Positions 4,074 to 40,999 of a stretch of DNA of 64,000 bases are shown piece after piece. Source of the stretch: Vicia villosa (lineage: Eukaryota > Streptophyta > Magnoliopsida > Fabales > Fabaceae); NCBI RefSeq assembly GCF_029867415.1, contig NC_081183.1, positions 30,715,806 through 30,779,805 of the forward strand, read 5' to 3'. The notes under the pieces were generated by a model. That model was not told where the DNA came from and did no database searches. It worked only from the letters and a program-made list of their open reading frames with translations. Position 1 is the stretch's first letter. Each line of letters opens with the position of its first letter. A program made the position numbers and the translations under genes.

Positions 4074-4829
4074 TATAAATAGGTTAAATATTTTTTTAAA
4101 AATTAAAAACTGTTAAATTTTGAAATAGTTTTAATATAATTTTAAAAAATACGAAAAAAATGTTTTTGTCGTGAATATCACACAAGAAATTTGTGGCGTG
4201 ATTTTCACCTGGAAATCAGAATACATAACTATGTATCGTTCTGCAATACTCTACAATCTATTAAACGTTTAGCGTCATGAATATTACGCAACAAATTTGT
4301 GGCGTGATTTTCATGTGGCAACCATTTGCTACAAACGCTCATGCCTCGTGTTTTTTTTCACGTCGCTAATTGTCTCTGTGATGTGATTTTTGTATTAGTG
4401 TCGTGATATGCACGAGGCAAATTATAGTTATTTTAGTGTTTAGGGTTGCAGAGGAAAGGTGTTTTAAAGATATCTTTGATTAAGTGAAATGAGTTTGTAA
4501 GTCAAAGATTATAGAGGGTTTAGGAGTCCGGAACTGCCAATTGATTAATCTTGCCCTTTTGGCAAAATGGAGATGGATATTACTTACAAGATATGCTAGG
4601 TCTTTGGAGGGATATTTTTGTAGCTAGATATAAAGCTTTACTTGTTTCCTCTCTTTGTGGGGGGAGGGAAGAAGATATATGTTCTACTTCTTGGTGTAAA
4701 TAGATGTCTCTTCTTGGGTCCAAAGATGAGGATATCTCATATTGGTTTGTTGATGGTATCATTAGGAGATTTGGATCGGGCTACCAAAATTAATTTTGGA
4801 AGGATCTTTGGTTAAGGTCTATTCCTTTA

Positions 4830-5303
4830 GGCTTTATTTGGAAGTTTGGAGGGGGAGAGGAGGGAAGGCTTTTGAAAATTTTTTTTTTTTTTAAATATTT
4901 GATATTTTTTGAAAAATTAATTTTGTATAAAATGATAAAAGAGTTTTTTTATCATTACTATATTTTTCATTTTTGAAATACTATAGCAACATAAAAGATA
5001 TTTGAAAAAATCATGTAAGCCCTCCAAAACTCTCATCCAATACAAATTTTGAGCTCCCCCAAAATTAGGGAGTTTTTGGTTTTATGAATAAAAGAAAACC
5101 CTCCCAACAAAAATCCTTCAATTATTTCCACTCAACCATTTTTTAAACCCCCCCCCCCATTCAATACAAATTTTTAGCTCCCTCAAATTAGGGAGTTTTT
5201 GGTTTTATGAATAAAAGAAAAACCTCCCAACCAAAATCTTTCAATTATTTCCACTCAACCCTTATTTTTTTTCAACCCCCCCTCCAAGCTCCCAAACAAA
5301 CCC
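4830..5303. mobile_element. PIF/Harbinger (Tourist-like) MITE
   Basis: The 474-bp element begins GGCTTTATTTGGAAGTTTGG. Its right end, read inward, is GGGTTTGTTTGGGAGCTTGG, a TIR of Tourist/Harbinger type. The TSD is TTA (4827-4829 and 5304-5306), the trinucleotide typical of that superfamily. The LINE reading continues on either side. The interior holds an approximately 125-bp tandem duplication (around 5020-5150 and 5150-5275) plus C-rich runs. The same insertion is present in copies C (28569-29065) and B (46299-46690), so it predates the duplication of the locus. B has only one copy of the internal repeat. Confidence 0.85.
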
Positions 5304-5774
5304 TTAAAATCCAAATTCTCTGGTCTATTCTCTAATTATGTTCACTTTTATGAGTTGGTGGGAGAGATCAGTTTGGTGGTTAATAGATATCTAGTTTTGG
5401 ATCTTAGGTGGTGGAGATGATTTTTTTCTTAGAGAGTTACCCCTTTTTCAGAATATTCTCTTTGCTTTGAGACATCACTTTTTCATAAGATAAAGATTAG
5501 TAAATTTTTAAGCATGCTAGTTAAGGTACTTTCTTAGTGGCCTCTTCTTACCATGTTCATAGGGTTAGCTCTAGCTCTTATTTGGCTTCTCTTTTAGACA
5601 AGAATTTATCCATACCCCTTATCTAGGATAGTTTGGCTTCTTTTAAGGTATTGGTATTTTGTGGATAACTTTTGCAACCAAATCCCTTATAGAGAGAACT
5701 TGTCTATAAGAGAGGTGATTATTGATCCTAGTAGGATCTCTTGTCCCTGGTGTAGGGACTTGGTTGAGTCGGTC

Positions 5775-5839
5775 CCTACCTTTTTGTTACTTGTGAGCTA
5801 ACCCTACCTTTTTGTTACTTGTGAGCTAACCCTATCTAC
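5775..5839. other. LINE/SIRE rearrangement junction with short tandem duplication
   Basis: About 28-30 bp of LINE sequence (core TTTTTGTTACTTGTGAGC) occurs twice in tandem here, but once at the same place in copy C (about 29538-29567). Immediately after the second copy the sequence becomes SIRE pol (RNase H C-terminal region). No LTR or TSD lies at this border, so it was made by breakage and end joining, not by integration. Confidence 0.8.
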
Positions 5840-5964
5840 GTGTTCTATCTTTAAACTTCGTTGATACAGACCATTAATGGGCTGATATCTTTACAAAACC
5901 CCTTGCTGAAGATAGGTTTAAGTTCATTCTAAAGAATATAAGTATGGATTTATGCCCAGAATGA
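5840..5964 (+). pseudogene. SIRE-1 pol tail (RNase H C-terminus)
   Basis: The last 40 or so codons of the copia polyprotein, closely matching the end of SIRE-3 pol at 60190-60302. It contains the FTKPLAED motif that closes RNase H in Ty1-copia elements, and ends with a stop at 5962-5964. All upstream pol sequence is absent because of the junction at about 5839. Confidence 0.9.
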
Positions 5965-6444: not shown

Positions 6445-7243
6445 ATGGCTGCTTCTTCATCTCAAAATGTTGGTTCTTCATCTCAACAACAACAACCACA
6501 ACAAGAACAAGAACAAGAGCTCATTCCAATGATTACTTGCTTGATTCCTCGAGATCAGTTGGAAGTTATATGTGAACTGATGGTGGATGTTGTTTCAAAA
6601 ATGGTCGTCTTTGTTTCTTGAGTTCTGTGGACCGGTCTATCCAGACCTAGTGAAAGATTTCTGGGTTCATGCGTTCGTTATCCCTAAAGCAATTGTTTCG
6701 TTTGTTCATGGAAGATTCTTTTCCATCACTGAAAACACATTGAGAATGTTGTTTGATTTGATGAACGCTGAAGGAGAAACTGAAGCAACTCTAAGAACAG
6801 ATTGGGATGCAGTTTACGCTGAAATCTTTACTGATAGAAAGAAATCAACAGGAGTTAAGGATCTGAAGAACATATACAAGATATGGACAAAGATTCTTCT
6901 AGGTTGTTTTTACCACAGGAAATCAACCAGTTCTTCTGACTTCATCAACAACAACCAACAATACATCATGTATTGTATTGGTACTCAGAAGAAGGTTGAT
7001 GTTACCTACATCATTTTCAATCACTTGTGGAATGCTGTAAAGGACTCTCGAGACAAGAGCAAAACAAAGAAGAAAGGAACTGTTATTCCTTTTGGAAGGA
7101 TTATTACCAATCTTCTGGTTCAAACCAAGATGGTTGAAGAGTTGGAAAATGCTGGAATTGTCAAAGATCCTTATACAATCAATGGGAGTGTCTTGAATGC
7201 TACTTCTTTGAAGAAAATGGGTCTTATTCAAGCTATTGGTACT
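6445..7243 (+). pseudogene. SIRE-1 env-like ORF, 5' part
   Basis: First part of the extra ORF that SIRE/Maximus elements carry after pol. The likely start is the ATG at 6445, with MAASSSQ followed by a Gln/Glu-rich stretch. An in-frame ATG at 6367 would add 26 residues. A frameshift near 6590 moves the reading from the first frame into the one used from 6587. Thereafter it is closely similar to the SIRE-3 ORF at 60804: the PVYPDLVKDFWVHA block, the FYHRK block, and a lysine-rich segment. It is cut at 7243 by the Ogre-like insertion and resumes at 20521. The role of this protein is unknown, and 'env-like' is the family label only. The N-terminal domain looks like the 'putative plant transposon protein' type, a comparison from memory. 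Confidence 0.8.
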
Positions 7244-10201
7244 TGTAGCAAACTGCCCTAAAAATAAAGGTTTAGAGTCGCCACCTATTCTGAAGGGCGA
7301 ATAGGAAACCCTACGCATTTTAGAGATTCGGGGTAAGTTATTATAATCAGGTCGAGGGAAGGTGTTAGGCACCCTCAACCCTTTCCTAAGGTTTGATATT
7401 AAAATAAAGGTTTATGGCTAAAATTATAGAGGTTAATAGCTAAGGAAATGAATAGGGTGAAAATTGAGATTTGAACTAAATTGAGGTTTTGAGGGAGGGG
7501 ACTCGCCTTGGTTATCCAAGTGCCTACGTATCTCCTTATGGAGAATCAGAGTCAACGTAGTTCGGGCACTGGGTTGTACGCCTTAGGATTGAATTTTGAT
7601 TTGATATGGTTGGAAGTTGTTTTAAAGGCTTTTTGAGTGGCCTATCGCAGTTTTGAATTTGATTTAAAGATGGAAAAGTTTCGAGGTTTGGCATACAACC
7701 CTGATTTGATATGTCACCGTTAGATGCGATGACCAATAGAGTTGGTCAGTATAGCTAACGGATTAATGGGGCATTGCTGGTTACTCTGATCGATAGATTC
7801 GATCGTCGCGGGCAGCAAATTAAATATGTTTTAATTTTGTAATTAAATCTCATGTTTTATTCTTTTATCTCTCGTCTAATGCGACTAATAGCTTTAGTCG
7901 GGTCGAGGAGAGAATTATTCAAGAATTAATCAAATTAATGTTTTTGCCAAATGGCAATGGGATTGGGCAAACCCTAATTTCTTAATAGACTTTTCTAGAG
8001 TTTTTGTGATCCTTAAAAATCAAGATTGATTAAAATAAATTAAATCGGATAATCGAGATAAACGGGATAATCCTAATTAATTATAATCTAATCCTAATTT
8101 TTAATTTCCTACTATTAATTTAATTTTAAGATTGAATTATATATATGTTTAAGACTAATTATACAATTTATACGAACAATTATAAAAACAATTAAATAAC
8201 ACCTGGGCATCAATCCTATGTTGTGCATCCCTGGGGGAGTATGGTGTGTCTGCGCTCCTGGGCCTCTTGATCATGCGCTAGTGACCATCTGATGGTGCTG
8301 AGCGAGGGTGCACTTTAAGCATGCACGCACATAGTTATTGAACCTATGAGAAGAGAAAAAAGAAGAAAAAAGATTTACCCAACCAGGATTCGAACCCTGG
8401 TTCTTAGGATCATACATCACACACTCTACCAATTGGACTCTTTTCATTTGCTGTTCAATGTATAGTCCATAAAACATTAGTATAAAAATACGTGCCATTC
8501 GTGGAAAATCAAAGAGACCAACGCGTGGGCCCCATCGACCCTTGGAGTCACCAATCATATGCAGAGATAGAACCTAGGAGATTTGACCATCCAATCGGAA
8601 CGCACAAACCTGCCACGCCAGCGCTGACCGCCCCCTGTAAATGTCAAACCGTCGCCGGTGGTGGTTCTCTCCTTCTTCTCCGGCGAGGAAAACCTTGAAA
8701 CCTGCGAATGGCCAGCAAAACGCACAAAAAGAAACCCTACCCCCCCTAAATCAGGTGCCGCGATCTCAGTGGTGATGTTAGTTTCGATTGAAAAGGGGTG
8801 GAAATACGAATCCGAAGCAAGAGGAGCTCCTTGCCCTAACAATGGCAAGTTGTGATCCAAGCTCCTAAACCCCCATGTAAAGCATCATGAATGTTTCATA
8901 GATACCCCTGAACATGACTGTATGCAGCAAATGGATTTGTAACGTAAGAATTAAGCGATTCGAAGTTTGGAACAACTTACCTCCGGCCAAGACGAATGGT
9001 AGGGTTCCGGACGTTTGCGAGCGCGAGTGTCTATTGTCCTTGGTCCCTGCAGTTCCCAGGAGCACGAAGAGATCTTTAGAAACTCTTGAGAGAGCCTGCA
9101 ATGTCGAGTTCGATGATGCAACTTTGTTCTTGATATTTTCAAGTGTAAACCCTAAGTCATATGGCTGCCTCTTTCCTCCAAATTTTCGGCCCCCTCCTAA
9201 TGAATGTTTTAGAATATATATATCATCACATTAGGGTTCAATCTTTGGAAAATAATCAAACTACTATTAACATGAAAATTGAAAAAAATATTTTGTATAA
9301 AATCTTTCTATTTTAGAACAATAATCTATTTCATGCACATTCTCCATTCATTCTTGGCCCTTGGATCATATTTAGATTTGTTTTGAATTAATAGAAAAGG
9401 AATGATCATTATATGGTTATTTTAGGATTTTATTTAATTTTTATTTGAATTTAAATGAATAAAAATAAAATAATATCACAAGAACAATTATATTGGACCA
9501 ATGGACCTCTCTTGGGCTTTTATTTGATCAAGACCAAAGCCATATACTTTCATATATTTTTACTTAATTTATTTGCCTTTTAATTGACTAAAATTCAAAT
9601 AAATATAAAATAAAAACTATAAAAATGTGGGGATGTATTTGGAGGTTCTTAGTGCTCTTATAAGCAATTTTGGATCAACAAAACCTAAGCCCATTTGGGA
9701 AATTTGCAAGATTGGATAATATTTCTTTCATGGACTTCTTGAATTTCAACCAACTTGCGCAATTCATAACTTCCTCAATTTTAATCATATAAATGCATTC
9801 TAGGACTTTTTAGAAAGCTTAAAGAGTCCTCTAAATGACACTTTTGGTTTCATCTCAATTGAAGCTTCCATGCTCAAGTTATAAGCTTTGACCCAAAAGG
9901 TGTTTTTGTTGACCTTTTCGGAGGACCTGTAATGTTTTTGTCCATATCTCCCAAATGGTGCATTTCTTGATCTTGGGCCCAACATCAAAGTTGTAGAGGA
10001 TGAAGTTTCCTTGAGGATAGGCTTTGGTTGGAGAATTTATGACAAACCATGCGAGAGTTATGGCCGGTCAAAGTTGAGTTGACTTTTTTTAGTTAAAAAC
10101 CCTGATTTGAACCTTTGATTAGGAGAGAGTGACCTGAGTTTAACCACTGAGCCTTGAACCCTTGAAAATGAAATAAGACGGGCAAATTTTGGGGTATGAC
10201 A
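7244..10201 (-). repeat. 3' LTR of the Ogre-like element
   Basis: 2958 bp, left copy on the + strand. It carries a tRNA-like block at 8378-8443 and short (AT)5 at 9214-9223, where the other LTR has a long TA tract. The plus-strand open frames inside (for example around 8492-9234) are recurrent in both LTRs and show no protein-like conservation, so I do not call them genes. Confidence 0.9.
8378..8443 (-). other. tRNA-like block in the 3' LTR
   Basis: On the minus strand this has an A-box-like AATTGGTAGAGTG and a B-box-like GGTTCGAATCC flanked by a 7-bp T-arm-like stem (AACCAGG/CCTGGTT). The T loop is eight bases and the acceptor ends do not pair, so it is probably a degenerate tRNA-derived block rather than a working tRNA gene. 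It could still bind TFIIIC. Its twin is at 18591-18653. Confidence 0.5.
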
Positions 10202-10214
10202 GCTGCCCCTGTTC
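10202..10214 (-). other. Polypurine tract of the Ogre-like element
   Basis: Minus strand reads GAACAGGGGCAGC immediately before the TGTCATACCCC start of the 3' LTR, which is the expected place for plus-strand DNA priming. The core CAGGGGCA recurs several times in 13380-14545. Confidence 0.7.
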
Positions 10215-10649
10215 AATCTTCTTGAACCTGAAGAGTCAGATAGGCACGTCTGCCTATCGTGATCTAAAGGTAGAAGATGATTGGACACTGAAAATGCTCT
10301 GAAATTTGCATCTGTTGGGAAGACATTCCGTGGGAGATGGACTTAGAGATGCCACCCAGGGTAAATACCCCTTTTGTGAAGTAGATGTTTCTTGGAAAGA
10401 ACCAGGTGTCTTGGTTGTAGCACGGCCTGAAAAGGCAACCTTATTTTTATGCGATGTTATGATGCATGCGATGTATGATGCAATAAGCTTCTCAAAATAA
10501 ATGAGAGCCATGTATGCGTATGCACTATGTATGAATGAAGTACGTTAGTTGAATGATGCATGATTGTTAGTTGTGTTAGTTGAAGTATGTTAGTAACTTT
10601 GAAAAAGAAAAAGAAAACCTTTATTTGTTATTGATGATGTTTTGGAGAA

Positions 10650-10815
10650 GATCATTACCGAGGGACTAACGTGATAAACTCAATTTGAGAAACCCTTTGT
10701 AAAACCCCTTTATATTTTCGAAGAAGATCACTGCCGAGGGACTAACGTGATGCATCAACCTGATTGAAGAACCCTTTGAAAAACCCTTTGATCACTGCCG
10801 ATGGACTAACGTGAT
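10650..10815. repeat. Minisatellite 1: three spaced units with ATCAC/GTGAT arms
   Basis: The core GGACTAACGTGAT recurs at about 10664, 10738 and 10803. It is preceded by ATCAT or ATCAC about 12 bases upstream, so each unit can pair ATCAC with GTGAT. Spacer lengths differ. Confidence 0.8.
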
Positions 10816-10865
10816 GGGTAATCGTAACTATCAATAGCGACGACTCGCAGTTTGTTGTAGAAGAT

Positions 10866-11550
10866 AGTTAACTTGCTATAGCGCTAGCAAGCTTTCGTAG
10901 TTTGTGAACCCCACTTACTATAGTTCTAGTAAGTTTCCGTAATTTGTGAACCCCACTTACTATAGTTCTAGTAAGTTTCCGTAGTTTGTGAACCCCAAAA
11001 GGATCACTTGCTATAGCTCTAGCATGTTCACCTGCACCAATAGGATTACTTATCATAGTTCTGATAAGCTCACCTGCACCATTTAGATCATCTGCCCTTG
11101 TTCGGACAAATTTCACCTGCACCATTTGGATCATTTGCTCTGGCTCGGACAAATTTCACCTACACCATTTGGATCATTTTCCCTAGTTCGGACAAATTTC
11201 ACCTACACCATTTGGATCATTTGCCCTGGTTCGGAAAAATTTCACCTGCACCATTTGGATCATTTGCCCTGGTTCGGACAAATTTCACCTACACCATTTG
11301 GATCATTTGCCCTGGTTCGGACAAATTTCACCTACACCATTTGGAGTCACTTACCCTTGATCGGGCAAATTTCACCTACACCATTTGGAGTCACTTACCC
11401 TTGATCGGGCAAGCTTACCTGCACCAAAGGAATTACCTGCCATGGTTCTGACAAGCGTACCTACATAAGATGAATCATTTGCTATAGTTCTAGAAAACTT
11501 ACCTGCATGAAAAAGGTTCACTTGCTATAACGCTAGCAAGTTTATCTGTA
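10866..11550. repeat. Minisatellite 2: about 43-bp units with hairpin arms
   Basis: Roughly 14 units. Most end in a CACCT(A/G)CACCATTT-type block and carry a 7-bp inverted repeat around a 6-base loop. Perfect arms include CTTGCTA/TAGCAAG (10872-10891, 11521-11540), CTTACTA/TAGTAAG (10914-10933, 10956-10975) and CTTATCA/TGATAAG (11049-11068). The central units use TTTGCCC/GGACAAA with one mismatch. Open frames of 92-117 codons run through it only because the unit lacks stops. Confidence 0.9.
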
Positions 11551-11595
11551 TAAAATTCTTGACGGTATCCTGTAGATGTATGAAGACGATGCTCG

Positions 11596-11980
11596 CGACT
11601 CGAGAGTTGGAAAGGAAACGATATGTTTAGAAACTCACGACTAGAGGGTCGGAAAACACACCTACCGCAACACGAGGGTTGGAAACTCACGACTGGAGGG
11701 TCAGAAAACACACCTATCGCAACACGAGGGTTGGAAACTCACGACACGAGGGTCGGAAAACACACCTATCACAACACGAGGGTTGGACACTCACGACACG
11801 TGGGTCGGAAAACACACCTATCACAACACGAGGGTTGGACACTCACGACACGTGGGTCGGAAGATACACCTATCACAACACGAGGGTTGGAAACTCACGA
11901 CTCGAGGGTCGGAAAACACACCTATCACAACATGAGGGTTGGACACTCACGACACGTGGGTCAGAAACTGGACTTTTGTA
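11596..11980. repeat. Minisatellite 3: about 52-bp units alternating two hairpins
   Basis: Around seven units. Each contains one hairpin with arms CGAC/GTCG and one with arms CAAC/GTTG around loops such as ACGAGG or TAGAGG (for example 11638-11651 and 11668-11681). The frames through it encode repetitive peptides and are not genes. Confidence 0.9.
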
Positions 11981-12059
11981 GTATGTGAATGCGCTAAATG
12001 CTATGTATATGTTAATGTGTATGTACATGTTTTACGAGTGAAATGAATAGCAAGGTTGC

Positions 12060-12362
12060 TGTCATCGGTAAGGTTACCGGAAAGCATCAATCAGGAGATT
12101 GGGAAGAATATCCCAGTAAGGTTACTGGCATCGTAAGGTTACCAGAAAGCATCGATCAGGTGATTGGAAAGATATCTCAGTAAGGTTACTGGCATCGGTA
12201 AGGTTACCGGAAAACATCCATCAGGTGATTGGAAAGATATCTTAGTAAGGTTACTGGCATCAGTAAGGTTACCGGAAAACATCCATCAGGTGATTGGAAA
12301 GAATATCTCAGTAAGGTTACTGACATCGGTAAGGTTACTAACATCTGTAAGGTTACCGGGAA
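12060..12362. repeat. Minisatellite 4: about 65-bp units, GGTAAGGTTACC type
   Basis: About five units, each with two short hairpins with a GG loop. One has CGGTAA/TTACCG arms (12066-12079). The other has CCAGTAA/TTACTGG arms (12113-12128). They are separated by a CATCAGGTGATTGG-type spacer. Confidence 0.9.
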
Positions 12363-12474
12363 GCAGGTGGACAATGTGGTTTAGCACCGGAGTTTTGAAT
12401 CGGATGTTTTGACGTATGGGATAATGCTTATGCTCATGCGTATGTTGATTGATGTAATGAGTGGAATGAAATAA

Positions 12475-12795
12475 TGTCTTCTATAAGACTACTTGAAAAA
12501 GGTTTCTGGAAAGGATAGAAATTTGTCTTAAAGAAAACCACCTGGAAAGGCTGAAAGATGTCTTTGAAAAGACTACCTAAAAAGGTTTTTTTTTAGAAAG
12601 AGAATGTCTTGAAGAAGATTACCTGAAAAGGTACATGAAAGAGAATGTATTGAAGAATATTACCTGAAAAGGTACTTGAAAGAGAATGTCTTGAAGAAGA
12701 CTACCTGAAAAGGTACTTGGAAATGATGATGATCGTCTTAGAGAAGACTACCTAGAAAGGTTCTTAGAAAGAGAATGTCTTGAGGAAGACTACCC
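12475..12795. repeat. Minisatellite 5: about 41-bp units, GTCTT..AAGAC type
   Basis: About seven units. Each has a GTCTT/AAGAC hairpin (for example 12560-12573, 12688-12701) followed by an ACCT/AGGT hairpin. One unit reads GTATT/AATAT (12647-12660), a matched change in both arms. Confidence 0.88.
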
Positions 12796-13079
12796 TAAAG
12801 GTGTGATGTATAAACCAATGTATGTAATGCATGATTTATATGTATTTGTATGATGCTTCAATGATAGGTTGTTGGTAACCAAAGCGTATATAGTTTGCTG
12901 GAGTTGTAGGGTTGTTTGATAAGATGGGGTGTGATGCTAGCGCGACTTCCCAATCCTTGTGTTTTTTTGAATTTTGAAGATCGTAGTTAGGAGAAAGATC
13001 TGTTCGATGTTGTAAAGTGTAAGAACGCCTTTATCTTATGTTGTGCGCCTTGCCCCAATTTGACCTTTGAAATACTCCA

Positions 13080-13335
13080 CTCCTTTAACCTTTTGAGGTT
13101 CTCCACACCTTTAACCTTTTGAGGCTCTTCACGCCTTTAACCTTTCGAGGTTCTCCACACCTTTAACCTTTGAATTGTTTGCCTTATGGATTTGATATCC
13201 AATGCCCCAATGTTTAGCGGAAAAAAGATGCCTGTGATCTCCAAGATGTGGAGGGAGTGCCCTGAGAAATAACCTTGTCATATGCTTCGACGTTTAGACT
13301 GAAGGGTATGCTCTTGATCTCCAGGATATGGAGGG
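13080..13335. repeat. Minisatellite 6 and paired CTCCA/TGGAG hairpins
   Basis: Four units of about 27 bp with AACCT/AGGTT arms around TTTG or TTCG loops (13087-13100, 13139-13152). These are followed by two separate CTCCA/TGGAG hairpins (13239-13253, 13319-13333) in a duplicated sentence-like block. Confidence 0.8.
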
Positions 13336-15690
13336 CTATCCATAGTGTTCTATCCTTTATGAATTTTGAATTCTTCCCATGCTTGACATGCCCCTGACTG
13401 TTATTTCTTCGAGATGTGTCTCAAGTCAATTGAACCTTAGGAAGAATGCCCCTAGTGAATAGGATATTTGATTGCATGCCCCTGTGATCCTTGAAATTTT
13501 GCCCCTGTTTAGGAGAACCCTCTAGCTGTGGTTCCCCCCATTCAAGAGTCTTTATTAGAAATGACCACCTTTGATTAAACCAATTTCGAGATCTTCTTGA
13601 TGCTAAGTGTATATTCACAGATGACGTTGTACCCTTTGAGAAGTAACTCCAATGCGATGCGTATGCAAGTTTTGAAATCGAAGTCCGTTATGAATTAGGA
13701 CTGGATGATTAGAAATGAATGCTTGAAAAAGCATAGTGGTTAGAAATGATTTTAACAAACTTAGGAGTCAGTATAACAAATCCTGCTTTATATCCTTTCG
13801 TAGTTAACCTTGCCTCAATTAGGACTTTTGAATGTTGTAGCTTGGTCTTGGTTCAGGGTTTAAGAAACAACAAATATAAGGCTCAAAATTTGTTTAACCC
13901 CACCCTTTTCGCCTTGATGTTCTCCAAATCCTAAAAATTCGCCTAATCCAATGAATGTGCTTTGTTTGTAAGAGAATCGTTTCAGTTTCGATGTTGAGCA
14001 GAAGCCTTAGTAGCGATCCAAGCATTGATGAAAATATAGTAGAGATCCAAGTATTGATGTGAAGCTTTGATGGTTTAGCAGTCACAAGATTATCCTTTGT
14101 ATTTCGTCTTTCTTTTGTTTTTATCCCTTATTTTTGCACGAATCAAATCCTTTGAATTTGATCCATCGGGACGCTCTAATTTTTACCTAAGTCATTTTTG
14201 TTTTCTTTTATGAAATTTTCCATTTTGACTTAGCGGGCGCTTTTCTCCTTTTTTTTGGCGGCTCCTTTGGAAATATTGATCCTTGGATATTGAATGTTGT
14301 GACTGCTATGTTGATTTTGATTTGTAAGCTTCGACTTTGATAATTCCTCGATCTTGAATGATGTGTTGTGGAAGAAGATGTAGTGAATGTTATCTCCATT
14401 GCTTCCTCAATCTTGGATGAACACGAGGAAGAAAATATGCTTGAACCTTTGTTCGATCCTTATGCTTGAATCCTTGCTTGGATTGACTGATTCTCTTGAC
14501 AACCAAAGTACACCATTGAATTAATTGAAATCTACCCATGCCCCTGGTTAAAATCAAGGTTTATTTGAAAAGTAGAAACAAGCTCCAACTCTTGGCTCGA
14601 GGGGGTGACGAGGGATTAACATCCTTATATCTCCACTGTTTGGGGATTGAAACAATGCCTGTACATCCTCGGCTTGGTCTTACCTTGAAAGCATATGTTT
14701 AGCTGGACTTAGTTATTTGTATTCGCCATTCTCCCTTAAGTTTGTTAATAATCCTAAAACCTGGAAAGTCGTAATAGTGAGCGAAATGAATTGACTCCAA
14801 AACCTGCATGGTCATCCCATTAGAATTGCTAATCCGAAGGTACAACTTTTTGAGTAACACTTAGCGATCGTAGGGTCGAAATTCTGAGCATGATAAACAC
14901 CTATTGATTCTAGGAAGAGTCTCCTTTATAGATCCATTGACTTTGTTTTACTCCTTAGTTGATGAACTTGTAGAAGTGAAGGGTAACCTTGAGTTCTCCT
15001 TATACATGTCAAACCTGTTGGGAATAAATCGTTAGCTGTGGGTTTTCGTCGAATCGGAACTTCATGGGTTTCCTTTGACTGAACCTCTTTTGCTTTTCCT
15101 AAGGATAGTATCACACCATTCGCAATCTTCGGAGTTCGTTGGTTGATGAAGAAAACCTATGGCCCTCGTGCCCCTTGGTGTGGAGTCAACATATGTTGCC
15201 TTCCCTCCATCGTAGTTATGCATCTCCGTTCAGGATATTGCCCCAGTTGGACTAATCCTTGCCCCCAGGTTATCGTAGAGCGTCCTTGTAAGTTTTGCTA
15301 TGTTCATAGATGAACCCCCTTATGGCTGGATACTCCTTGTGTATATCTATGAGGGAACTTCTTTGTTGAACTAATCCTTGCTCGATGATAACCTTTGTTG
15401 TATTTACAATCCTGTTACGAAAAGGCATAGACATATAACTGGCATGGCGAAAGGCATCCCTTTTTTCTTAGTAAGGCTCATTCCTCCTTTCTCCATCGTT
15501 TATGATCCTCTTTGGTTTTCTTCGGGAATTTCGGGAAACCGGCTAGCATGCTAAGTATGGATGCGGGTGAAGATAGAAATGCAAATGTAGATGGAAATGT
15601 ATGACTGCATGAAAATGCGAATGCATGGGTATGCGAGACTCCTCTTTTTTTTTATAACTCCGTGTATGCAATGCAGACATGTGACGTATA
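13336..15690 (-). other. Unique-looking internal region of the Ogre-like element
   Basis: No long open frame on either strand and no recognisable retroviral domain. On the minus strand it repeats short PPT-like CAGGGGCA motifs (13380-13510, 14540). It could be a decayed coding region or lineage-specific noncoding filler; I cannot tell which. Confidence 0.5.
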
Positions 15691-15699
15691 ATCCTAGGG

Positions 15700-16760
15700 A
15701 TAGCCTTAGAGGCGACATTAAACCCTAGTGAAATCCTTGCAAGATAGATGTTACGACACGCCGATGGAAATCCCTTAGATTAGGGAATATGCAGAAGGTA
15801 GCGGCTGGTGACCGTTCAAGACAGTCACCAAGTCTCATGGCCATTGAGAGGCTAATCAACGTGTACCAATGAAATTGTCCTTGGTGGGAAGGTTCTCTGT
15901 GTGGAACACTACTTATCTAAGGACGATATCGGATGAAGTAAAATCCCTACAGGATAGGGATGAAAGACGTAGCGACGGGAATCCAAACCCTGCAAGTTAG
16001 AGGGTGTGCGGAAACAAGCATGGAGTGACCGTTCAGGACAGTCACTAGATCTCATAGCCATCGAGAGGCCAATCGAACACATGCTAACGAAGTTGTCCTT
16101 CGTATGAGGGATGTGATTTTTTTGAAGTAGGATCCCTACCGGCTAGGGGATACGTAGTTGTAAGCACTGGGTGACCGTTCAAGATAGTCACCGAATCGCA
16201 TGGCCATCGAGAGGCCAATTGACGTATGCTAACAAAGATGTCCTTCGTATGAAGGATGCGTTTTTAGAAATATAATCCCTACAGGCTAGGGAACGCGTAG
16301 ATGTAAGCACATGGTAACTGTTCAAAGTAGTCACTGGATCGCATGGCCATCAAGAGGCCAATCGACGTGCGTAAACGGAGATTTCCTTCGTGGGAAGGAC
16401 ACGTAGTTGTAAAATACAAAGATATAAAAGGAAACTCCACACATGTTAGGGAGTGCGTAGATGCGGGCGCAGAGTGACCGTTCATGACAGTCACTAGGTC
16501 TCATGGCCATCGAGAAGCCAATCAACGTGCGTAAAGGTAGATGTCCTTCGTGGGAAGGACACATAGTTGTAAGAGTACAAAGATATAAAAGGAAACTCCC
16601 TACAGGTTAGGGAGTGCATAGATGCAGGCGCGGGGTGACTGTTCATGACAGTCACTAAGTCTCATGGCCATCGTGAGGCCAATCAACGTGCATAAATGGA
16701 GGTATCCTTCGTGGGAAGGACATGGTTTTGGAAATAGGATCCCTGCAGGCCAGGGGACGC
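15700..16760. repeat. Minisatellite 7: about 150-160-bp units with four hairpins each
   Basis: About seven diverged units. Each contains, in order, a TCCCTA/TAGGGA hairpin, a GTGAC.../GTCAC hairpin (perfect 8-bp arms at 16635-16655), a TGGCC/GGCCA hairpin, and a TGTCCTT/AAGGACA hairpin (16542-16561). One unit has TCCCTG/CAGGG (16740-16757), a matched change relative to TCCCTA/TAGGGA. Confidence 0.9.
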
Positions 16761-17437
16761 GTAAGAGTACCTGCAAGATTAAGATGCAAGACATTCGCAG
16801 TATATAAATTGCATATATAATAAGCACGTAAGCACATAAGCCCTAGGTTCATAGGTTCGACGTAACGGCTTAGGGTGCCTACCATTCCCATTGGTATGTT
16901 CTAGAAGGTCTCATGGGGTTATTCGTAGCCGCCGAGACTTTTTGTCTCTTTAGATTTTAGAACAACTCATTTTATCCATGAGGTTCGAGTTTTAGGGGTA
17001 GGTTCCCAGAGAGATCAGCTAAATATCAAGTCCAGCCCTCAACAAGGTCAAGCCTCGTATCAGACCTTTCCGGATACTCAACCCACTCTGAGTGGAATGA
17101 TAATAAGACTCGTAGGCGATGTAATTCCCCTCTGGTCTTAAATATAATTCCCACGCTTAGGTTTTAACAACAATTTATATACAACCCAAAAGGTGTAGTA
17201 AAATAGCAAATATTCACGTAAACAAATGTTTAATTAAATTACTGTAAATAAATGTAATTGCTGCAAATAATTGAAACTGCAAGTAAATAAATAAATAAAA
17301 TTTAAAAATTTACAATAAAGCATAAACCCTAATCCGAAACCCTAAAAATGGCAAATTAGCCAAACCCTAAAAATTTCGCCAAAAACCTAAACCTTGCCTA
17401 AAGCTATAGGAGCATAATAATTCACCATTATAGTTAT
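16761..17437. other. Internal 5' end of the Ogre-like element, noncoding
   Basis: Corresponds to the leader just inside the 5' LTR (minus strand). No gag start or long frame is visible. It contains repeated CCTAAA-type A-rich stretches and a TAAATAAATAAA patch near 17285. Confidence 0.5.
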
Positions 17438-17455
17438 CCCCAGCAGAGTCGCCAG
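17438..17455 (-). other. Primer binding site of the Ogre-like element
   Basis: Minus strand reads TGGCGACTCTGCTGGGG two bases inside the 5' LTR. From family knowledge, Ogre elements prime from a tRNA-Arg 3' end. I cannot check the match to a specific tRNA here. Confidence 0.8.
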
Positions 17456-18590
17456 TTGTAGCAACCTGCCCTAAAAATAAAGGTTTAGAGTCGCCACCTA
17501 TTCTGAAGGGCGAATAGGAAACCCTACGCAGTTTAGAGATTCAGGGTAAGTTATTATAATCAGGTCGAGGGAAGGTGTTAGGCACCCTCAACCCTTTCCT
17601 AAGGTTTGATATTAAAATAAAGGTTTATGGCTAAAATTATAGAGGTTAATAGCTAAGCAAATGAATAGGGTGAAAATTGAGATTTGAACTAAATTGAGGT
17701 TTTGAGGGAGGGGACTCGCCTTGGTTATCCAAGTGCCTACGTATCTCCTTATGGAGAATCAAAGTCAACGTAGTTCGGGCACAGGGTTGTACGCCTTAGG
17801 ATTGACTTTTGATTTGATATGGTTGGAAGTTGTTTTAAAGGCTTTTTGAGTGGCCTATCGCAATTTTGAATTTGATTTAAAGATGGAAAAGTTTCGAGGT
17901 TTGGCATACAACCTTGATTTGATATGTCACCGTTAGATGCGATGACCAATAGAGTTGGTCAGTATAGCTAACAGATTAATGGGGCATTGCTGGTTACTCT
18001 GATCGATAGATTCGATCGTCGCGGGCAGCAAATTAAATGTGTTTTAATTTTGTTATTAAATCTCATGTTTTATTCTTTTATCTCTCGTCTAATGCGACTA
18101 ATAGCTTTAGTCGGGTCGAGGAGAGAATTATTCAAGAATTAATCGAATTAATGTTTTTGCCAAATGGCAATGGGATTGGGCAAACCCTAATTTCTTAATA
18201 GACTTTTCTAGGGTTTTTGTGATCCTTAAAAATCAAGATTGATTAAAATAAATTAAATCGGATAATCGAGATAAACGGGATAATCCTAATTAATTATAAT
18301 CTAATCCTAATTTTTAATTTCCTACTATTAATTTAATTTTAAGATTAAATTATATATATGTTTAAGACTAATTATACAATTTATATGAACAATTATAAAA
18401 ACAATTAAATAACACCTGGGCATCAATCCTGTGTTGTGCATCCCTGGGGGAGTATGGTGTGTCTGCGCTCCTGGGCCTCTTGATCATGCGCTAGTGACCA
18501 TCTGATGATGCTGAGCGAGGGTGCACTCTTAGCACGCACGCACATAGTTATTGAACTTGTGAGAAGAGAAAAAAGAAGAAAAAAGATGTA

Positions 18591-18653
18591 CCCAACCAGA
18601 ATTCGAACCCTGGTTCTTAGGATCATACAGCACACACTCTACCAATTGGACTC
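18591..18653 (-). other. tRNA-like block in the 5' LTR
   Basis: Twin of 8378-8443 with one change inside the T-arm-like stem (AACCAGA instead of AACCAGG), which weakens it. A-box-like and B-box-like motifs are retained. Confidence 0.45.
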
Positions 18654-19425
18654 TTTTCATTTGCTGTTTAATGTATAATCCACAAAACATTAGTATAAAA
18701 ATACGTGCCATTCGTGGAAAATCAAAGAGACCAACGCGTGGGCCCCAGCGACCCTTGGAGTCACCAATCATATGCAGAGAGAGAACCTAGGAGATTTGAC
18801 CATCCAATCGGAACGCACAAACCTGCCACGCCAGCGCTGACCGCCCCCCTGTAAATGTCAAACCGTCGTCGGTGGTGGTTCTCTCCTTCTTCTCCGGCGA
18901 GGAAAACCTTGAAACCTGCGAATGGCCAGCAAAACGCACAAAAAGAAACCCTACCCCCCCTTAATCAGGTGCTGCGATCTCAGTGGTGATGTTAGTTTCC
19001 ATTGAAAAGGGGTGGAAATACGAATCCGAAGCAAGAGGAGCTCCTTGCCCTAACAATGGCAAGTTGTGATCCAAGCTCCTAAACCCCCATGTAAAGCATC
19101 ACGAATGTTTCATAGATACCCCTGAACATGACTGTATGCAGCAAATGGATTTGTAACGTAAGAGTTAAGCGGTTCGAAGTTTGGAACAACTTACCTCCGG
19201 CCAAGACGAATGGTAGGGTTCCGGACGTTTGCGAGCGCGAGTGTCTATTGTCCTTGGTCCCTGCAGTTCCCAGGAGCACGAAGAGGTCTTTAGAAACTCT
19301 TGAGAGAGCCTGCAATGTCGAGTTCGATGATGCAACTTTGTTCTTGATATTTTCAAGTGTAAACCCTAAGTCATATGGCTGCCTCTTTCCTCCAAATTTT
19401 CGTCCCCCTCCTAATGAATGTTTTA

Positions 19426-19545
<120 letters not shown>

Positions 19546-20520
19546 TCACATTAGGATTCAATCTTTGGCAAATAATCAACCTACTATTAACATGAAAATT
19601 GAAAAAAATATTTTGTATAAATTTTTTCTATTTTAGAACAATAATCTATTTCATGCACATTCTCCATTCATTCTTGGCCCTTGGATCATATTTAGATTTG
19701 TTTTGAATTAATAGAAAAGGAATGATCATTATATGGTTATTTTAGGATTTTATTTAATTTTTATTTGAATTTAAATGAATAAAAATAAAATAATATCACA
19801 AGAACAATTATATTGGACCAATGGACCTCTCTTGGGATTTTATTTGATCAAGACCAAAGCCATATACTTTCATCCATTTTTACTTAATTTATTTGCCTTT
19901 TAATTGACTAAAATTCAAATAAATATAAATAAAAACTATAAAAATGTGGGGATGTATTTGGAGGTTCTTAGTGCTCTTATAAGCAATTTTGGATCAACAA
20001 AACCTAAGCCCATTTGGGAAATTTGCAAGATTGGATAATATTTCTTTCCTGGACTTCTTGAATTTCAACCAACTTGCGCAATTCATAACTTCCTCAATTT
20101 TAATCATATAAATGCATTCTAGGACTTTTTAGAAAGCTTAAAGAGTCTTCTAAATGACACTTTTGGTTTCATCTCAATTGAAGCTTCCATGCTCAAGTTA
20201 TGAGCTTTGACCCAAAAGGTATTTTTGTTGACCTTTTCGGAGTACCTGTAATGTTTTTGTCCATATCTCCCAAATGGTGCATTTCTTGATCTTGGGCCCA
20301 ACATCAAAGTTGTAGAGGATGAAATTTCCTTGAGGATAGGCTTTGGTTGGAGAATTTATGACAAACCATGCGAGAGTTATGACCGGTCAAAGTTGAGTTG
20401 ACTTTTTTTAGTTAAAAAGCCTGATTTGAACCTTTGATTAGGAGAGAGTGACCTGAGTTTAACCACTGAGCCTTGAACCCTTGAAAATGAAATAAGACGG
20501 GCAAATTTTGGGGTATGACA

Positions 20521-22510
20521 GTACTGCTCCAAAACCAGATCCAAATGTTAGAAACAGAAGAGGTCCATTTCTTGCTGAGTTTGAGTTGTTCTTTCTCAAT
20601 GAACAGCCAGATATTAAGGTTCATTACCTTAATATTCTTAAACAAGATGGTTCTGTGGATACTAAGATGAAGACAAGCAGGCATAAGCTTCCATCTACCA
20701 AGGATGGTGTGGTAGAAGTCTTTCCATAAGTTGCTTCCCATCAAGAAAGAAGAACTAAGAGAAAGCTTGATCCTCTTTCTATTAGTAAGGAGAAGAGAAA
20801 TGAAGAAAAAGTTGTTGAAGAGAAACAAGAAGTTGTTGTTGAAAAAGAGAATAAGAATAAAGAAGATAGTGTTGAAAAGAAGAAGAAGAAAAAGAATAAT
20901 GATGAGAAGGACGTAGAGAAGAAGAAGAAGAAAAAGAAAGATAAGAAGAAAAAGAAAAAGAAGGTTGTTGAAGGAGAAAAGACACAGGCAGAAGAAGAGA
21001 AGAAGGAAGCTGAGAAGAAGAGAGCGATTGCTATAGGCAATCTGAAGGCTGTGTATGAGAAGAAGAAGCGAAAAAGAATTGAAGCTGATTCTGAAAGGTC
21101 TCACAAGAAATCTAAAGGTGTGTCTATTTCTGAACCTAACTCTGCATCAGCTTTAAGTTCAAAATTTGTACCAACAGAAGTTCCAAAACCATCTCAACCA
21201 GAAATACAACCAGAAAAAGCCTCCACCAAATCACCTTCAATCACCAAAGTTCTCACCCCTCCTTCTTCCCCCAAAATGAATATTGCTTCTGACCACCCCA
21301 TTGATGAACCCATTCTTGATGTTTTACCCCTTCAAACCCTCTTTCCCCCTCACACAAATATCTCCACTTCTCAACCTTGTCCTCATGCAAATTATTCACC
21401 CGTTGCCTCTCCTGTTCCCATCAACCCCACTGCATCAAAATCTCCAAATTCTGATTCTTTAAAAGAATTATTCCGTGCCTGTAACTTCACCCCTAAACTT
21501 CGTTCTGATCCTGCCTTTTTAACCTGGAATCTGAGGATGAAGCAGAATCATTGCTCTATCTTGAGAGAGAACCTGAACCCTACTTCATTCTGAACCCGGA
21601 TTCTTCTTCCACCGGTTTCAAAACCCCCAACCCTGAACTTTTTGTTGGTGTAAGTTTTGAATTTCGTAAGCTAAAGGTACAGACAAGACTAGAAGCCTTG
21701 AAGGTTGCACATAATGCCAGGACGGACTATGTTGCTACTAGGAGTCTTTGGAGAGCCTTCAGAAGGGAGAGAAATTCTGACTTTCTGAAGCTTCAGAAAG
21801 CTTGTGAAGCTGAAGCTCCTGGTCCTTTTGGTTTCTTAAGGGATTTTGAGGATAGCTATGTCTACCCCATCAAAAGCTGGAAATCGCTTGAAGAGAAGGA
21901 ATTCGTTGATGAGCTCGAGGAAGTGCATCCCCTTGCTATGGTTGTGTGGAAGCCTCATTACAATGTTCTGACTGGAGACTTTCAGTCAATATTCAACTGG
22001 CTAAGGGAGAATCCCTTTGAGAAAGCGCCAAATATGGTATATCCAGAAGTTGAATACCCATCAGAACCTTCTGCTCCTACTCCTCCAAAGAATTTGGCTG
22101 AAATTCTTTTGGCTTTAGAGACTTCAGAAGTTAACATTCCTTCGCCTGTGTTTGCTGAAGATGCTTCTGAATCAGAAGCTGATGCTGGGACCCAAGATTC
22201 TGAAACTCAAGATGCTGAGAATCATCCTGCTATGCAACCTCCTCTTAAGGAAAATCAAGCTGATGTTCTCATGGTCGATGCTGCTGCTGAGACTCCTCTT
22301 CTGGACAATAGCCTTGATGCTTCTTCTGCTGAACCTTCTGTTCTGATGAACACCATGAAGGCTCTTCAACATAATCAAGCTGATCTTGCTTCTCGTCTGG
22401 ACAAGCATGAGGAAACTCACAATGAGTTCAGATCTTTTATGAAGACGCAGACGGAAAGAACTGCTGAGATTCAAAACCTTTTGGCCATGGTAGCTTCCAA
22501 GCTAGGCTAG
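20521..22510 (+). pseudogene. SIRE-1 env-like ORF, 3' part
   Basis: Continuation after the Ogre-like insertion, in the frame used at 7243. The segment GPFLAEFELFFLNEQPDIKV is followed by an in-frame stop at 20727. The same frame then continues through a strongly charged Lys/Glu-rich region (20760-21110), a Pro/Ser-rich linker (21170-21430), and, after a frameshift near 21560, a second conserved region. That region contains WRAFRRE, PIKSWKSLEEKEFVDELEE, MVVWKPHY and FNWLRENP, then an acidic tail. It ends with a Gln/Leu-rich stretch that could form a coiled coil (LASRLDKHEETHNEF). The stop is at 22508-22510. The matching part of SIRE-3 is 61836-62826. One stop and one frameshift make it non-functional. 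The biochemical role is unknown. Confidence 0.8.
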
Positions 22511-23493
22511 TCGTAGTGTGTCTTAGTCTTAGATGTTTTCTTGTTTCTTGCATCTGTTTCTTGCATCTGCTTCTATCCCTCTTGTACTTCTGATATATTT
22601 TGTTAATCAATGAAATATTATCTTCTTCACTTTATGTTGTTTTATCATCTGAATCTTTTTAAATGCTTTTTGATGTTATGACAAAAAGGGGGAGAAACAT
22701 GATAATTGATTTGGTTTATTAAATCAGTTGTTGGGATTAAGTCTCAACATTCCTAACATTTATTTGCAAGTTCTATGTCTTTAAGATTTTTTGCAGGATT
22801 GAAGATATTCTGAAAAAGCTCAACATGAGAAGCAAATACATGGGAAAAGCAATTCTATAAAGAGGCATGTTCTTGGAAAATTGAAGCAAGCTTAGTGCCA
22901 TGAAGCTTCAAAATCAGGATCAGAAGCAAGAAGAATGTTCTGATATTCTCGTGGCAGAATATGCTCAGATACATTTTCTTCTCTCACATGCTAGGATACA
23001 TGCTACTTATTAAGAATCTATCAAGAATGCTCTGATACATGCTATTCATTAAGAATGCTCTGATACATTCTTGATTCTGATATTTTTTGTCTAGTATGTT
23101 CTGAAACATTTCAGGATGTAAAGATGCTCTGATGATGCTCTGATACATTTTAGAATGTTCTGATTCAATCAAGCATGCTATGACAACAAAGAAGAAATTC
23201 AAAGCTCTAAAGCTGTCCTATGGAAGCAAGAAGCAGAAGCTCTGAATGTTCTGAAGTTCTAGGCAAAGTGAACGTCTCTACCGAACTGGAAAATACTCAG
23301 GGAAGTCTTTTATTTATAAATTCTTCTAGCATTTATTTCAGGGGGAGATTGTTAATCTCAGGGGGAGAGATATTCGCACACTCTGATTATATGCTTATGC
23401 TATATCTGTGTAATTGTCTTTTGTCATCTGATATTCTGATTGCAAATTCATATCAATTATATATGTTTTTGTCATCATCAAAAAGGGGGAGAT
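22511..23493 (+). other. SIRE-1 3' untranslated region with repeated purine tracts
   Basis: Noncoding stretch between the env-like ORF and the LTR. It contains short repeats of an ATGCTCTGATACAT type (22960-23170) and several PPT-like tracts: AAAAGGGGGAGA at about 22684, CAGGGGGAGA twice near 23338-23370, and the tract AAAAAGGGGGAGAT directly before the LTR (about 23480-23493), which is the real PPT by position. Confidence 0.75.
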
Positions 23494-24625
23494 TGTTAGA
23501 ACAAGATTTGTTCTGATCAATATTCTTGTTTTGATGATAACAATGTATATGAATTTTGTATAAGATAATGTGGTACTCTAATCCTTTACATTTTCCATTT
23601 CAGGAAATATATAAAGATTATGCACAATTTAGCGCTAGAAGCATTGACTCAGAAGGTTCAAGTATGCAACATCAGAACATGCTCTCGCAAGACATCAGAA
23701 GATGGTCAATCAGAATCATAACATGGTCTATGAAGCATCAGAAGAACTTGAGTTCAGAAGCAGAAGCACTGAAGTTCTTATGGTATCACGCTCAAGCACT
23801 TCAAAGTCAGAAGACAAGAAGATGCTCTGCACCAAGCTGTTTGACTCTGATTATTCAAATGTTGTATCTACAAACACCAGATCAGAAGCAAGTATAAGAT
23901 GACAGGCTACGCTGACTGACAAAAGGAACGTTAGAAGCTACAAAAGGAAAAGTCAGTAGAAGCAGCAAAAGCAAGGCTCGAGGTAGTTGACAAAAGAGTG
24001 AAACATTAAATGCAGAGCTATACTGAACACGCAACGCATTAAATGCTCCCAACGGTCATCTTCTCAAATGCCTATAAATATGAAGTTCTGATCAGAAGCA
24101 AAAAGAACAACACTTGCAATATACTAAAACGCTGCTGAATTCATTACTCATGAACTTCATCTTCAATCTCACTTCACTTGTAATATCTTAGTGAGAGTTA
24201 AGCTTAGAACTTAAGAGAAATATCACAGTTGTGATTATAGTTTTCTAAGAAGCATTTGAATACTCTTGTAAACATTTATTTTACATTGATTTGTAAAAGG
24301 TTCCTAGAGTGATCAGTGAGATCAGTAGACTCTAGAAGACTTATAAGTTTCTAAGTGGTGTATTCCTAGAGTGATCAAGTTGTGATCAAAATACTCTAGA
24401 AGACTTAGAGGGTATCTAAGTGGAAAAACATTGTAATCAATGTTGATTAGTGGATTAAATCCTCAGTTGAGGTAAATCACTCTAAGGGGGTGGGCTGGAG
24501 TAGTTTCGTTAACAACGAACCAGGATAAAAATAATTGTGTTAATTGTTTTTGTCTTAAGAGTTTTTAAAGTCACACTTATTCAAACCCCCCCCCCCCCCC
24601 TTTCTAAGTGTTTTTCTATCCTTCA
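23494..24625 (+). repeat. SIRE-1 LTR
   Basis: 1132 bp, starting TGTTAGAACAAG and ending CTATCCTTCA, with PPT on its left and PBS on its right. It contains a TATA-like CCTATAAATATG near 24070 and a C-rich run near 24585-24600. It is the same family as the LTRs at 47934-49063 and 55272-56403. Confidence 0.95.
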
Positions 24626-24644
24626 ATTGGCACTAGAGCGCTGG
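24626..24644 (+). other. SIRE-1 primer binding site
   Basis: ATTGGCACTAGAGCGCTGG, a mutated form of the initiator-Met-tRNA complement (consensus TGGTATCAGAGC) found in Ty1-copia elements. SIRE-2 has TTGGAATCAGAGCG at the same place. Confidence 0.8.
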
Positions 24645-24707
24645 TTCTAGGTGCAAGCACTTAACCGTGTTAGAAAAAGATTCAGAAGAGAAAAACGCTA
24701 AGTCAAT

Positions 24708-25145
24708 ATGGTTGATACACCAACTGCTGCATCAACTCCTACACCTGTTTCAAATGATCAACACAACAATGGAAATGGATATTCTAGACCACCAGTATTT
24801 GATGGTGAAAACTTTGAATATTGGAAAGATAGATTGAAAAGTTACTTTCTTGGTCTAGATGGTGATTTATGGGATTTACTTGTGGATGGTTACAGACATC
24901 CTGTAAATGCTGGAGGAGTAAAGATGTCAAGACAAGAAATGAGTGATGATCAAAAGAAACAATTCAAAAATCATCACAAGTCTAGGACTATTCTGCTGAA
25001 TGCTATTTCTCATGCTAAATATGAGAAGATATCAAACAGAGAAACTACTCATGACATCTTTGAATTCTTGAATATGACTCACGAAGGAAATGCCCAAGTC
25101 AATGAGACAAAAGCTCTTGCATTAATCCAAAAGTATGAAGCCTTC
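24708..25145 (+). pseudogene. SIRE-1 gag, N-terminal part
   Basis: Starts at the ATG 24708. The N-terminal Thr/Pro/Ser-rich stretch leads into PPVFDGENFEYWKDRLKSYF, the typical copia gag domain start. LDGDLWDLLVDGY and ALALIQKYEAF follow. The frame is broken after the Glu-Ala codons by the solo LTR at 25146, where the target site CCTTC is duplicated. The protein would form the nucleocapsid core of the virus-like particle. Confidence 0.92.
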
Positions 25146-26773: not shown

Positions 26774-27174
26774 CCTTCAAGATGGAGGATGATGAAAACA
26801 TTGAAATAATGTTCTTAAGATTTCAAACTCTAACTGCTGGATTAAGAGTGCTTGACAAGGGATATAAAAAGGCTGATCATGTCAAGAAGATCATCAGAAG
26901 CTTGCCCAGAAGATGGGGGCCCAATGGTGACTGCATTCAAGATAGCAAAGAATCTGAGTGAAATCTCTTTGGAAGAGCTGATCAGCGCTATGAGGAGTCA
27001 TGAAATAGAGCTGGATGCTAATGAACCCCAAAAGAAAAGTAAGTCTATTGCGTTAAAATCCTTGAATAAAAAATGCACTAACGCTTTGCAGGCTAAAGAA
27101 GAAGATTCTGAAGAGTCAGAATCAGAAGAAGAAGAAGAAGATGAACTGTCCATGATCTCCAGAAGGGTAAACCA
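26774..27174 (+). pseudogene. SIRE-1 gag, C-terminal part (truncated)
   Basis: Resumes at the duplicated target site with MEDDENIE, the LTAGLRVLDKGY-type block and KKIIRSLPRRWGP. A single extra base near 26918 (GGGGGCCC against GGGGTCC in the other copies) shifts the frame. The acidic stretch before the zinc knuckle is present up to the SRRVN position. There the sequence jumps into CACTA DNA, so the CCHC motif and all pol are lost. Confidence 0.88.
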
Positions 27175-40153: not shown

Positions 40154-40161
40154 GCAAAAAG

Positions 40162-40919: not shown

Positions 40920-40999
40920 GGTGAAGCAAGAAATGAGTAATGTGAGTAAGAAACAAGATAGTAGCGGAGAAAGCCTAGATCGAAGGGCCTATGATACCA

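Follow-up and report, generated by a model that had tools for sequence, protein, structure and literature searches.

Covarying hairpins in a tandem-repeat array of an apparently non-coding LTR retrotransposon from Vicia villosa

The 64,000-nucleotide stretch of Vicia villosa contig NC_081183.1 analyzed here (assembly GCF_029867415.1, positions 30,715,806 to 30,779,805 of the forward strand; hereafter the window) contains a complete long terminal repeat (LTR) retrotransposon whose interior carries tandem arrays of short hairpins. In one of these, array A1, the stems covary between units, and we put it at slightly better than even that the A1 hairpins are maintained at the RNA level in the sense strand, a judgment drawn from patterns of substitution. 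The element itself is best interpreted as belonging to the large retrotransposon derivative (LARD) kind, as a non-autonomous LTR retrotransposon without coding capacity that is read from the minus strand and is either derived from an Ogre/Tat-type element or parasitic on one. A first-pass annotation had described its interior as at least seven unrelated repeat families, every one a hairpin module, and had offered RNA structure as one possible reason. That option gains support for A1 from covariation and sense-strand wobble pairs, and in part for array A4, but is not supported as a general rule; for A1, the case is now stronger than a reading of the sequence alone could show.

Array A1 (10871..11541, minus strand; identified with Tandem Repeats Finder (TRF) and a hairpin search) consists of 16 hairpins of 22 nt, each with an 8-bp stem and a 6-nt loop, spaced 42–44 bp apart with the exception of one gap of 51. 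A search of the 2.03-Gb genome with the element interior returned 112 matches (29 of 11,049 first-look candidates scored), of which 30 loci were read, and a search with A1 gave 2,939 first-look candidates, 40 of them scored. Given these thousands of first-look candidates, the family is high-copy. Among the best 40 A1 places, the window matches at 100% and the others at 86–92%, with the match covering the array wholly or for the most part; of the 39 places other than the window, 20 were fetched. Every copy examined belonged to this kind, and some carried nested insertions. Locus L027, which overlaps L026, was left out of early copy counts and of the first covariation test and used in later A1 sets. 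Among the 29 loci then counted, window included, hairpins recur in 15 for A1, 10 for A2, 10 for A3, 16–17 for A4, and 13 for A5, many of the loci ending before the arrays begin; the hairpins listed in the first-pass annotation do, then, persist in homologous copies.

Among 130 distinct A1 units, stem pairs 7, 8, and 2 rank first, second, and third of 861 column pairs for covariation, and the same three remain on top among 303 distinct units, a set that leaves out 13 of 486 hits cut by a locus end. Because all column pairs share one history, this ranking controls for common descent. A recount that included the 13 cut hits, dropped five overlaps, and merged three of the 40 loci as continuations of others gave 468 hairpins in 37 copies, whose arms are paired at 96.8%, compared with 85.6% (maximum 86.9%) when 3′ arms are swapped within a copy. 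For the 16 cores present in at least five copies, pairing is 97.7% (83.5% shuffled), the covariation score 0.601 (0.325), and the number of cells changed on both sides 21 (7.6); none of 500 shuffles reached any of these three values, and slid partners are only 21–50% paired. Private cores were omitted where no shared core was close enough (30 of 76 in a set of 89 cores, 18 of 121 in the 468-hairpin set). By our reading of the 16 widespread cores, at least six compensatory changes are implied. Pair 2 occurs as U-A or C-G, pair 5 as G-C or A-U, pair 6 as C-G or U-A with U·G also seen, pair 7 as C-G, U-A, or G-C, and pair 8 as A-U or C-G, with pairs 2 and 7 found in all four combinations. The C-G to G-C and A-U to C-G swaps require two changes without a wobble intermediate.

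The deviations from Watson-Crick pairing are also asymmetric between strands. On the sense strand, cores in at least five copies hold 17 G·U, no A·C, and 3 other deviations, whereas private changes from Watson-Crick pairs (cores in at least three copies) number 25 G·U, 19 A·C, and 25 other, a contrast with a Fisher p of 0.0002 if cells are independent. Taken at face value, it indicates that A·C states failed to become widespread while the lineage was active, and that copies no longer active decay without constraint. Genome-wide, pair 5 of one core is G·U in 19 places and A·C in 6 (p = 0.015), and the first 100 of 395 places of a second hairpin comprise 92 G-C, 7 G·U, and 1 A·C, several of these places belonging to a single array. 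Of 89 cores, 68 are more stable on the sense strand and 18 on the antisense, and A1 as a whole folds at z = −4.1 in sense and −0.8 in antisense. The loop is partly fixed, with A at position 2 in 84, C at position 4 in 74, and A at position 6 in 82 of the 89 cores.

Four further arrays were identified with TRF on the minus strand: A2 (11570..11990; 52-bp units with two 4-bp stems, CGAC/GTCG and CAAC/GTTG), A3 (12040..12380; 65-bp units, CGGTAA/TTACCG and CAGTAA/TTACTG), A4 (12470..12805; ~41-bp units, GTCTT/AAGAC and NCCT/AGGN), and A5 (13075..13171; 26-bp units, AACCT/AGGTT). Gapped hits of A3, A4, and A5, one to six per set, were left out. In A4, 184 of 200 matches to N-CCT....AGG-N in the loci are clustered, and their outer pair is A-T in 106, T-A in 39, G·T in 17, C-G in 5, and G-C in 4, with 13 unpaired (5 A·C, 8 other). 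This pair is formed in 92.9% of cases, compared with 64.1% (maximum 73.9%) when partners are shuffled within a locus; G·T occurs in 10 loci, A·C in 4, and C-G in one. In the column ranking for A4b, the outer pair reaches only rank 29 of 231, its signal being strong under the wider N-CCT....AGG-N pattern. A2 has one two-state pair (G-C/A-T, rank 13 of 325) and A3 one two-state swap (G-C/A-T), neither above background.

A scan for perfect stems (arms of at least 6, loops of 3–9, 30 shuffles) found 21 in the interior, compared with 8.6 ± 2.7 in shuffled sequence. The excess lies in the arrays (8 vs. 2.1 in 10860–12800; 9 vs. 1.1 in 15690–16780), and there is none in the middle (2 vs. 2.6 in 13175–15680). 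Because a single hairpin is counted once for every repeat when a tandem array is compared with shuffled sequence, the fair test is the single unit. At that level, the longest stem exceeds that of shuffled units for the 42-bp version of A1 and for array B (p = 0.007 each) and marginally for A3 (p = 0.059), and is unremarkable for A5 (p = 0.197), A4 (p = 0.205), and A2 (p = 0.54), as well as for a 99-bp family called in one other copy (L008; p = 1.0). The 43-bp version of A1 gives p = 0.99 in this Watson-Crick test, which is blind to its G·U pair. Two families were called only in other copies, one of 48 bp (AGTCAG/CTGACT; p = 0.024) and one of 32 bp (CCAG/CTGG; p = 0.217). Combined, the ten unit types give a Fisher p of 0.0017; ten control arrays from other parts of the window give 0.32. 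The best 24-nt hairpin energy agrees, with medians of 0.03–0.07 for A1 and B and 0.18–0.5 for A2 to A5. Whole-array folding z-scores were rejected as proof, in view of copy-number multiplication and the negative control regions. As a separate observation, the 48-bp and 32-bp families share the loop TTCCCGT on different stems (L003 6467–6628 and L010 6132–6406; L011 5912–6021), possibly another compensatory pair.

Array B (15690..16780, minus strand, TRF) consists of 143–161-bp units plus more diverged ones, each unit with four stems of the types TGACTGT, TCCCTA, TGTCCTT, and TGGCC. These stems recur in 88 full units from 27 loci, window included (106 of 194 hits were left out as partial). In 84 units, with the window copy left out, stem columns are conserved at 0.940–0.961 and the remaining columns at 0.798 (with p between 1e-4 and 2e-5 for each group); the stem columns were derived by folding the same alignment, and two of the four stems had not been named beforehand. 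The eight inverted repeats listed in the first-pass annotation can all be read in the sequence. The TRF periods (42/43, 52, 65, 41, 26, and 143–161 bp) amount to six array families rather than at least seven, since TCCCTA/TAGGGA and TGTCCTT/AAGGACA share one ~150-bp unit and CTCCA/TGGAG occurs only twice (13239–13253 and 13319–13333, within 13239..13333).

Several results weigh against hairpin maintenance at the RNA level. In A1, the other five of the eight stem pairs vary little or rank 34–406. Two of the five covariation measures lie within the shuffles, namely, the number of pairs in which both partners have changed (4, with 3.0 in shuffles, 74 of 500 of which reach it) and the number of pair types (9, with 9.6 in shuffles, 479 of 500 reaching it); the tool rates these measures as least prone to a false signal from relatedness, and our confidence is slightly lowered for this reason. 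Counted by columns, the wobble bias reduces to three G·U columns against two mismatch kinds (p = 0.36), and looser cutoffs admit A·C pairs (29 G·U, 3 A·C, 3 other for cores in at least three copies; 48 G·U, 6 A·C of 344 cells, 5 other for at least two). A double change seen in the window copy, GCTTATCA, was dropped as evidence for A1, as it occurs once in the whole genome, here, and is thus private. In A4, the stems are short, a single locus supplies all the C-G pairs, the T-A version could go back to one inherited change, and the array folds better in antisense (z = −3.3) than in sense (−2.2). A5 folds worse than its shuffles (z = +2.2), A2 folds at chance, and neither A3, A4a, nor B covaries above background. 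No strand preference appears in the ratio of G·U to A·C in A2 (7/5), A3 (6/9), A4a (4/6), A4b (6/5), A5 (3/3), or B (131/121). Stem excess is also seen in two flanks (25 vs. 9.2 in 20521–27000; 21 vs. 10.2 in 53001–60000) and is absent from a third (40001–47000); three flank pieces fold at z = −1.0 to −2.9, and an LTR piece (7500–8250) folds at −6.0. The stem excess expected by the first-pass annotation is thus present in the interior and shared by two flanks, and does not extend to single units of A2, A4, or A5. Its rule that every family is a hairpin module is not supported, with A2, A4, and A5 within chance, A3 marginal, and covariation lacking in A3, A4a, and B.

For B alone, the stems could instead represent a set of dyad-symmetric sites at which a protein binds DNA or either strand of RNA, with the sequence and not the structure being conserved, an explanation that we regard as possible but on the unlikely side. 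Conserved stem columns, the lack of covariation, and the balance of G·U and A·C would all be expected from such sites, but B folds strongly as RNA on both strands (z = −6.1 in sense, −4.8 in antisense), and pair conservation, in columns chosen from the same alignment, cannot separate structure from sequence.

For the arrays in general, the hairpins could act as DNA palindromes, promoting slippage on single-stranded cDNA or on the lagging strand, while quasi-palindrome correction copies one arm onto the other. Such correction would generate covariation without RNA function, and A-T/T-A and C-G/G-C swaps, which are hard to reach through G·U, would come easily by template copying. The joint excess of stems over chance across unit types and the missing strand bias in families other than A1 also fit. 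Within A1, however, the commonest core (31 of 37 copies) retains an uncorrected U·G pair, A·C is absent from cores in at least five copies, and G·U outnumbers A·C 19 to 6 genome-wide at pair 5. None of the 89 cores has its loop also in reverse-complement form, though correction needs no loop inversion. On this evidence, we consider the DNA-level explanation rather unlikely.

A functionless origin, in which an array starts from any piece with a short inverted repeat that tandem duplication then multiplies, fits A2, A5, the 99-bp family, and A4 by its stem length (unit p of 0.2–1.0), and control stretches elsewhere likewise show stem or folding excess. Chance stems do not, however, yield the covariation in A1 or in the A4 outer pair, nor the higher conservation of the B stems, and we think this improbable as an overall explanation. 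That the arrays encode a repetitive protein is highly improbable: open frames of 95–134 amino acids span A1 and A2, and PMC11963269 describes antisense open reading frames (ORFs) downstream of pol in Retand, yet the two array frames tested have no Pfam match and the mixed order of 42-, 43-, and 44-bp A1 units (six copies compared) shifts the reading frame.

If A1 hairpins are indeed maintained as sense-strand RNA, the genomic RNA of the element would carry short stem-loops in series. Selection on the sense RNA would have kept A1, and perhaps part of A4, base-paired while the lineage was active, such that paired bases changed together and G·U became widespread on the sense strand where A·C did not; inserted copies would then decay without a preference for G·U. 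Because the A1 hairpin is repeated and its loop partly fixed, it has the look of a multivalent docking site, and we infer that what is maintained may be a docking site present many times over on the genomic RNA, serving packaging or dimerization. A non-coding element would need an outside source for the docking protein; the simplest candidate is the Gag of an autonomous relative, a step that we consider possible but less likely than not. Arrays would lengthen or shorten during reverse transcription, through strand transfer or slippage. More speculatively, and in our view doubtful at this breadth, Tat/Ogre minisatellites could be fast-evolving multivalent hairpin arrays rather than replication debris, that let a non-coding parasite enlist Gag, or some other protein, from its autonomous host element, with repeat number as a dosage knob and compensatory drift of the stems around a kept loop signature (in A1, a nearly fixed A, C, and A at loop positions 2, 4, and 6).

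The anatomy of the element bears out the first-pass description of an element with tandem arrays in its interior. Comparison of the two LTRs places a 2959-bp 3′ LTR (sense orientation) at 7244..10202 and a 3064-bp 5′ LTR at 17457..20520, both minus strand, between target-site duplications (TSDs) GTACT at 7239..7243 and 20521..20525, and leaves an interior of 7.25 kb (10203–17456). The LTRs are 98.1% identical (56 mismatches in 2958 aligned positions, the alignment pieces each carrying one extra base), the right one being longer because of an (AT)n tract detected with TRF. Their Kimura two-parameter divergence of 0.019 corresponds to an insertion age of about 0.7 million years at an assumed substitution rate. 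Adjoining the 5′ LTR is a primer-binding site (PBS; 17437..17454, minus strand, two bases inside the LTR boundary) with the sense sequence TGGCGACTCTGCTGGGGA, which we take to be of the tRNA-Arg type. A polypurine tract (PPT)-like sequence, GAACAGGGGCAGC in sense, adjoins the 3′ LTR (10203..10215, minus strand, read from sequence) and is alignable across 12 copies with few changes. The PBS beside the right LTR and the PPT-like run before the left one identify the minus strand as sense, an orientation that the first-pass annotation did not give; this puts B near the 5′ end and has A5 to A1 run toward the 3′ LTR, the side on which minisatellites are reported in Ogre. Between A5 and B, the middle region (13361..15680, minus strand) shows no stem excess and, in the frames tested with Pfam, no domain; its best matches in 29 other loci are 81–90% identical.

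The stem scan also picked up an 8-bp stem with a 4-nt loop, GATAGGCA/TGCCTATC, at 10239..10258 on the minus strand, 36 bases from the 3′ LTR. It is perfect in 8 of 12 aligned copies, which include L031–L041, and has one base changed in the other four; given how close it lies to the PPT, it may take part in reverse transcription or packaging. Within the 3′ LTR, the piece at 7500–8250 folds far better than shuffled sequence on the sense strand (z = −6.0; antisense, −3.3).

No Pfam domain was found in six interior frames of the window copy or in six frames from other copies, and Rfam yielded nothing above threshold (a SCARNA7 match at 19.1 bits, threshold 65, was taken as chance). A coding interior was rejected in view of the missing Pfam matches in the tested frames and the mixed repeat-unit lengths. 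No autonomous partner was found, no systematic search having been made for one; long ORFs beyond L004, L021, L023, and L024 were read as copia-like or as the same non-coding family, and of three pieces upstream of A1 arrays, one has ORFs likewise read as copia-like. In the copies and frames examined, the element shows the large interior without protein domains and the many similar copies of a LARD, and also the tandem-repeat region upstream of the 3′ LTR that marks Ogre/Tat. The label "Ogre-like" is plausible from PBS type, TSD, large size, and arrays near the 3′ LTR, with no pol found in the frames tested. tRNA-Arg is listed among the primers of non-chromovirus elements in PMC6317226.

A plus-strand ORF with a Transposase_32 domain (PF20167, E = 1.3e-15; 6581–7258) reaches into the insertion point, where the element probably disrupted it. 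Matching stretches at 4684–5880 and 28423–29641 (79–98% in the 215–300-base pieces listed) flank both the element and this ORF and probably represent LTRs belonging to an older element that hosted the insertion; a third, related stretch lies at 46153–47265. Elsewhere, 48283–49588 is repeated ~7.3 kb away at 55623–56901 (95% identical in two listed pieces), with a more diverged third copy at 23839–25149, and 38439–39941 is an AT-rich array of ~26-bp units in both orientations around 38.85 kb.

The A1 covariation makes selection on repeat RNA a directly testable question and suggests a route by which an element that encodes no protein could compete for those of another element. According to PMC7004042, Ogre makes up 45% of one legume genome and its tandem repeats seed new satellite DNAs. 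If our reading is correct, satellites derived from such arrays would inherit hairpin units from functional RNA, and part of this "junk" may be working RNA.

Hypervariable tandem repeats in the 3′ untranslated region of Ogre/Tat LTR retrotransposons were reportedly described by Macas et al. in 2009. We found no description of covarying hairpins in such arrays among titles and abstracts of the open-access literature; the terms hairpin, inverted repeat, secondary structure, and dyad are absent from the text of PMC7004042, as are hairpin and secondary structure from the Retand paper (PMC11963269). LARDs such as Sukkula resemble the present element in being large LTR elements with a long non-coding interior, but covarying tandem-array hairpins are not mentioned in the descriptions as far as available to us; conserved RNA structures are known in LARDs and in terminal-repeat retrotransposons in miniature, according to PMC7215508. 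Retand, a Tat element, has tandem arrays between pol and the 3′ LTR, and some members are non-autonomous; in PMC11963269, the origin and function of these arrays are called unknown, and antisense ORFs with known domains are described, whereas none was found here in the tested frames. The closest likeness is to the hypervariable repeats of Ogre/Tat, several copy-variable minisatellite families upstream of the 3′ LTR, which PMC7004042 also reports in non-autonomous copies without pol, together with the hypothesis of Macas et al. that the arrays turn over by strand transfer. The arrays described here differ in that they hold stems, one family of which covaries, and in the presence of a further array, B, near the 5′ end.

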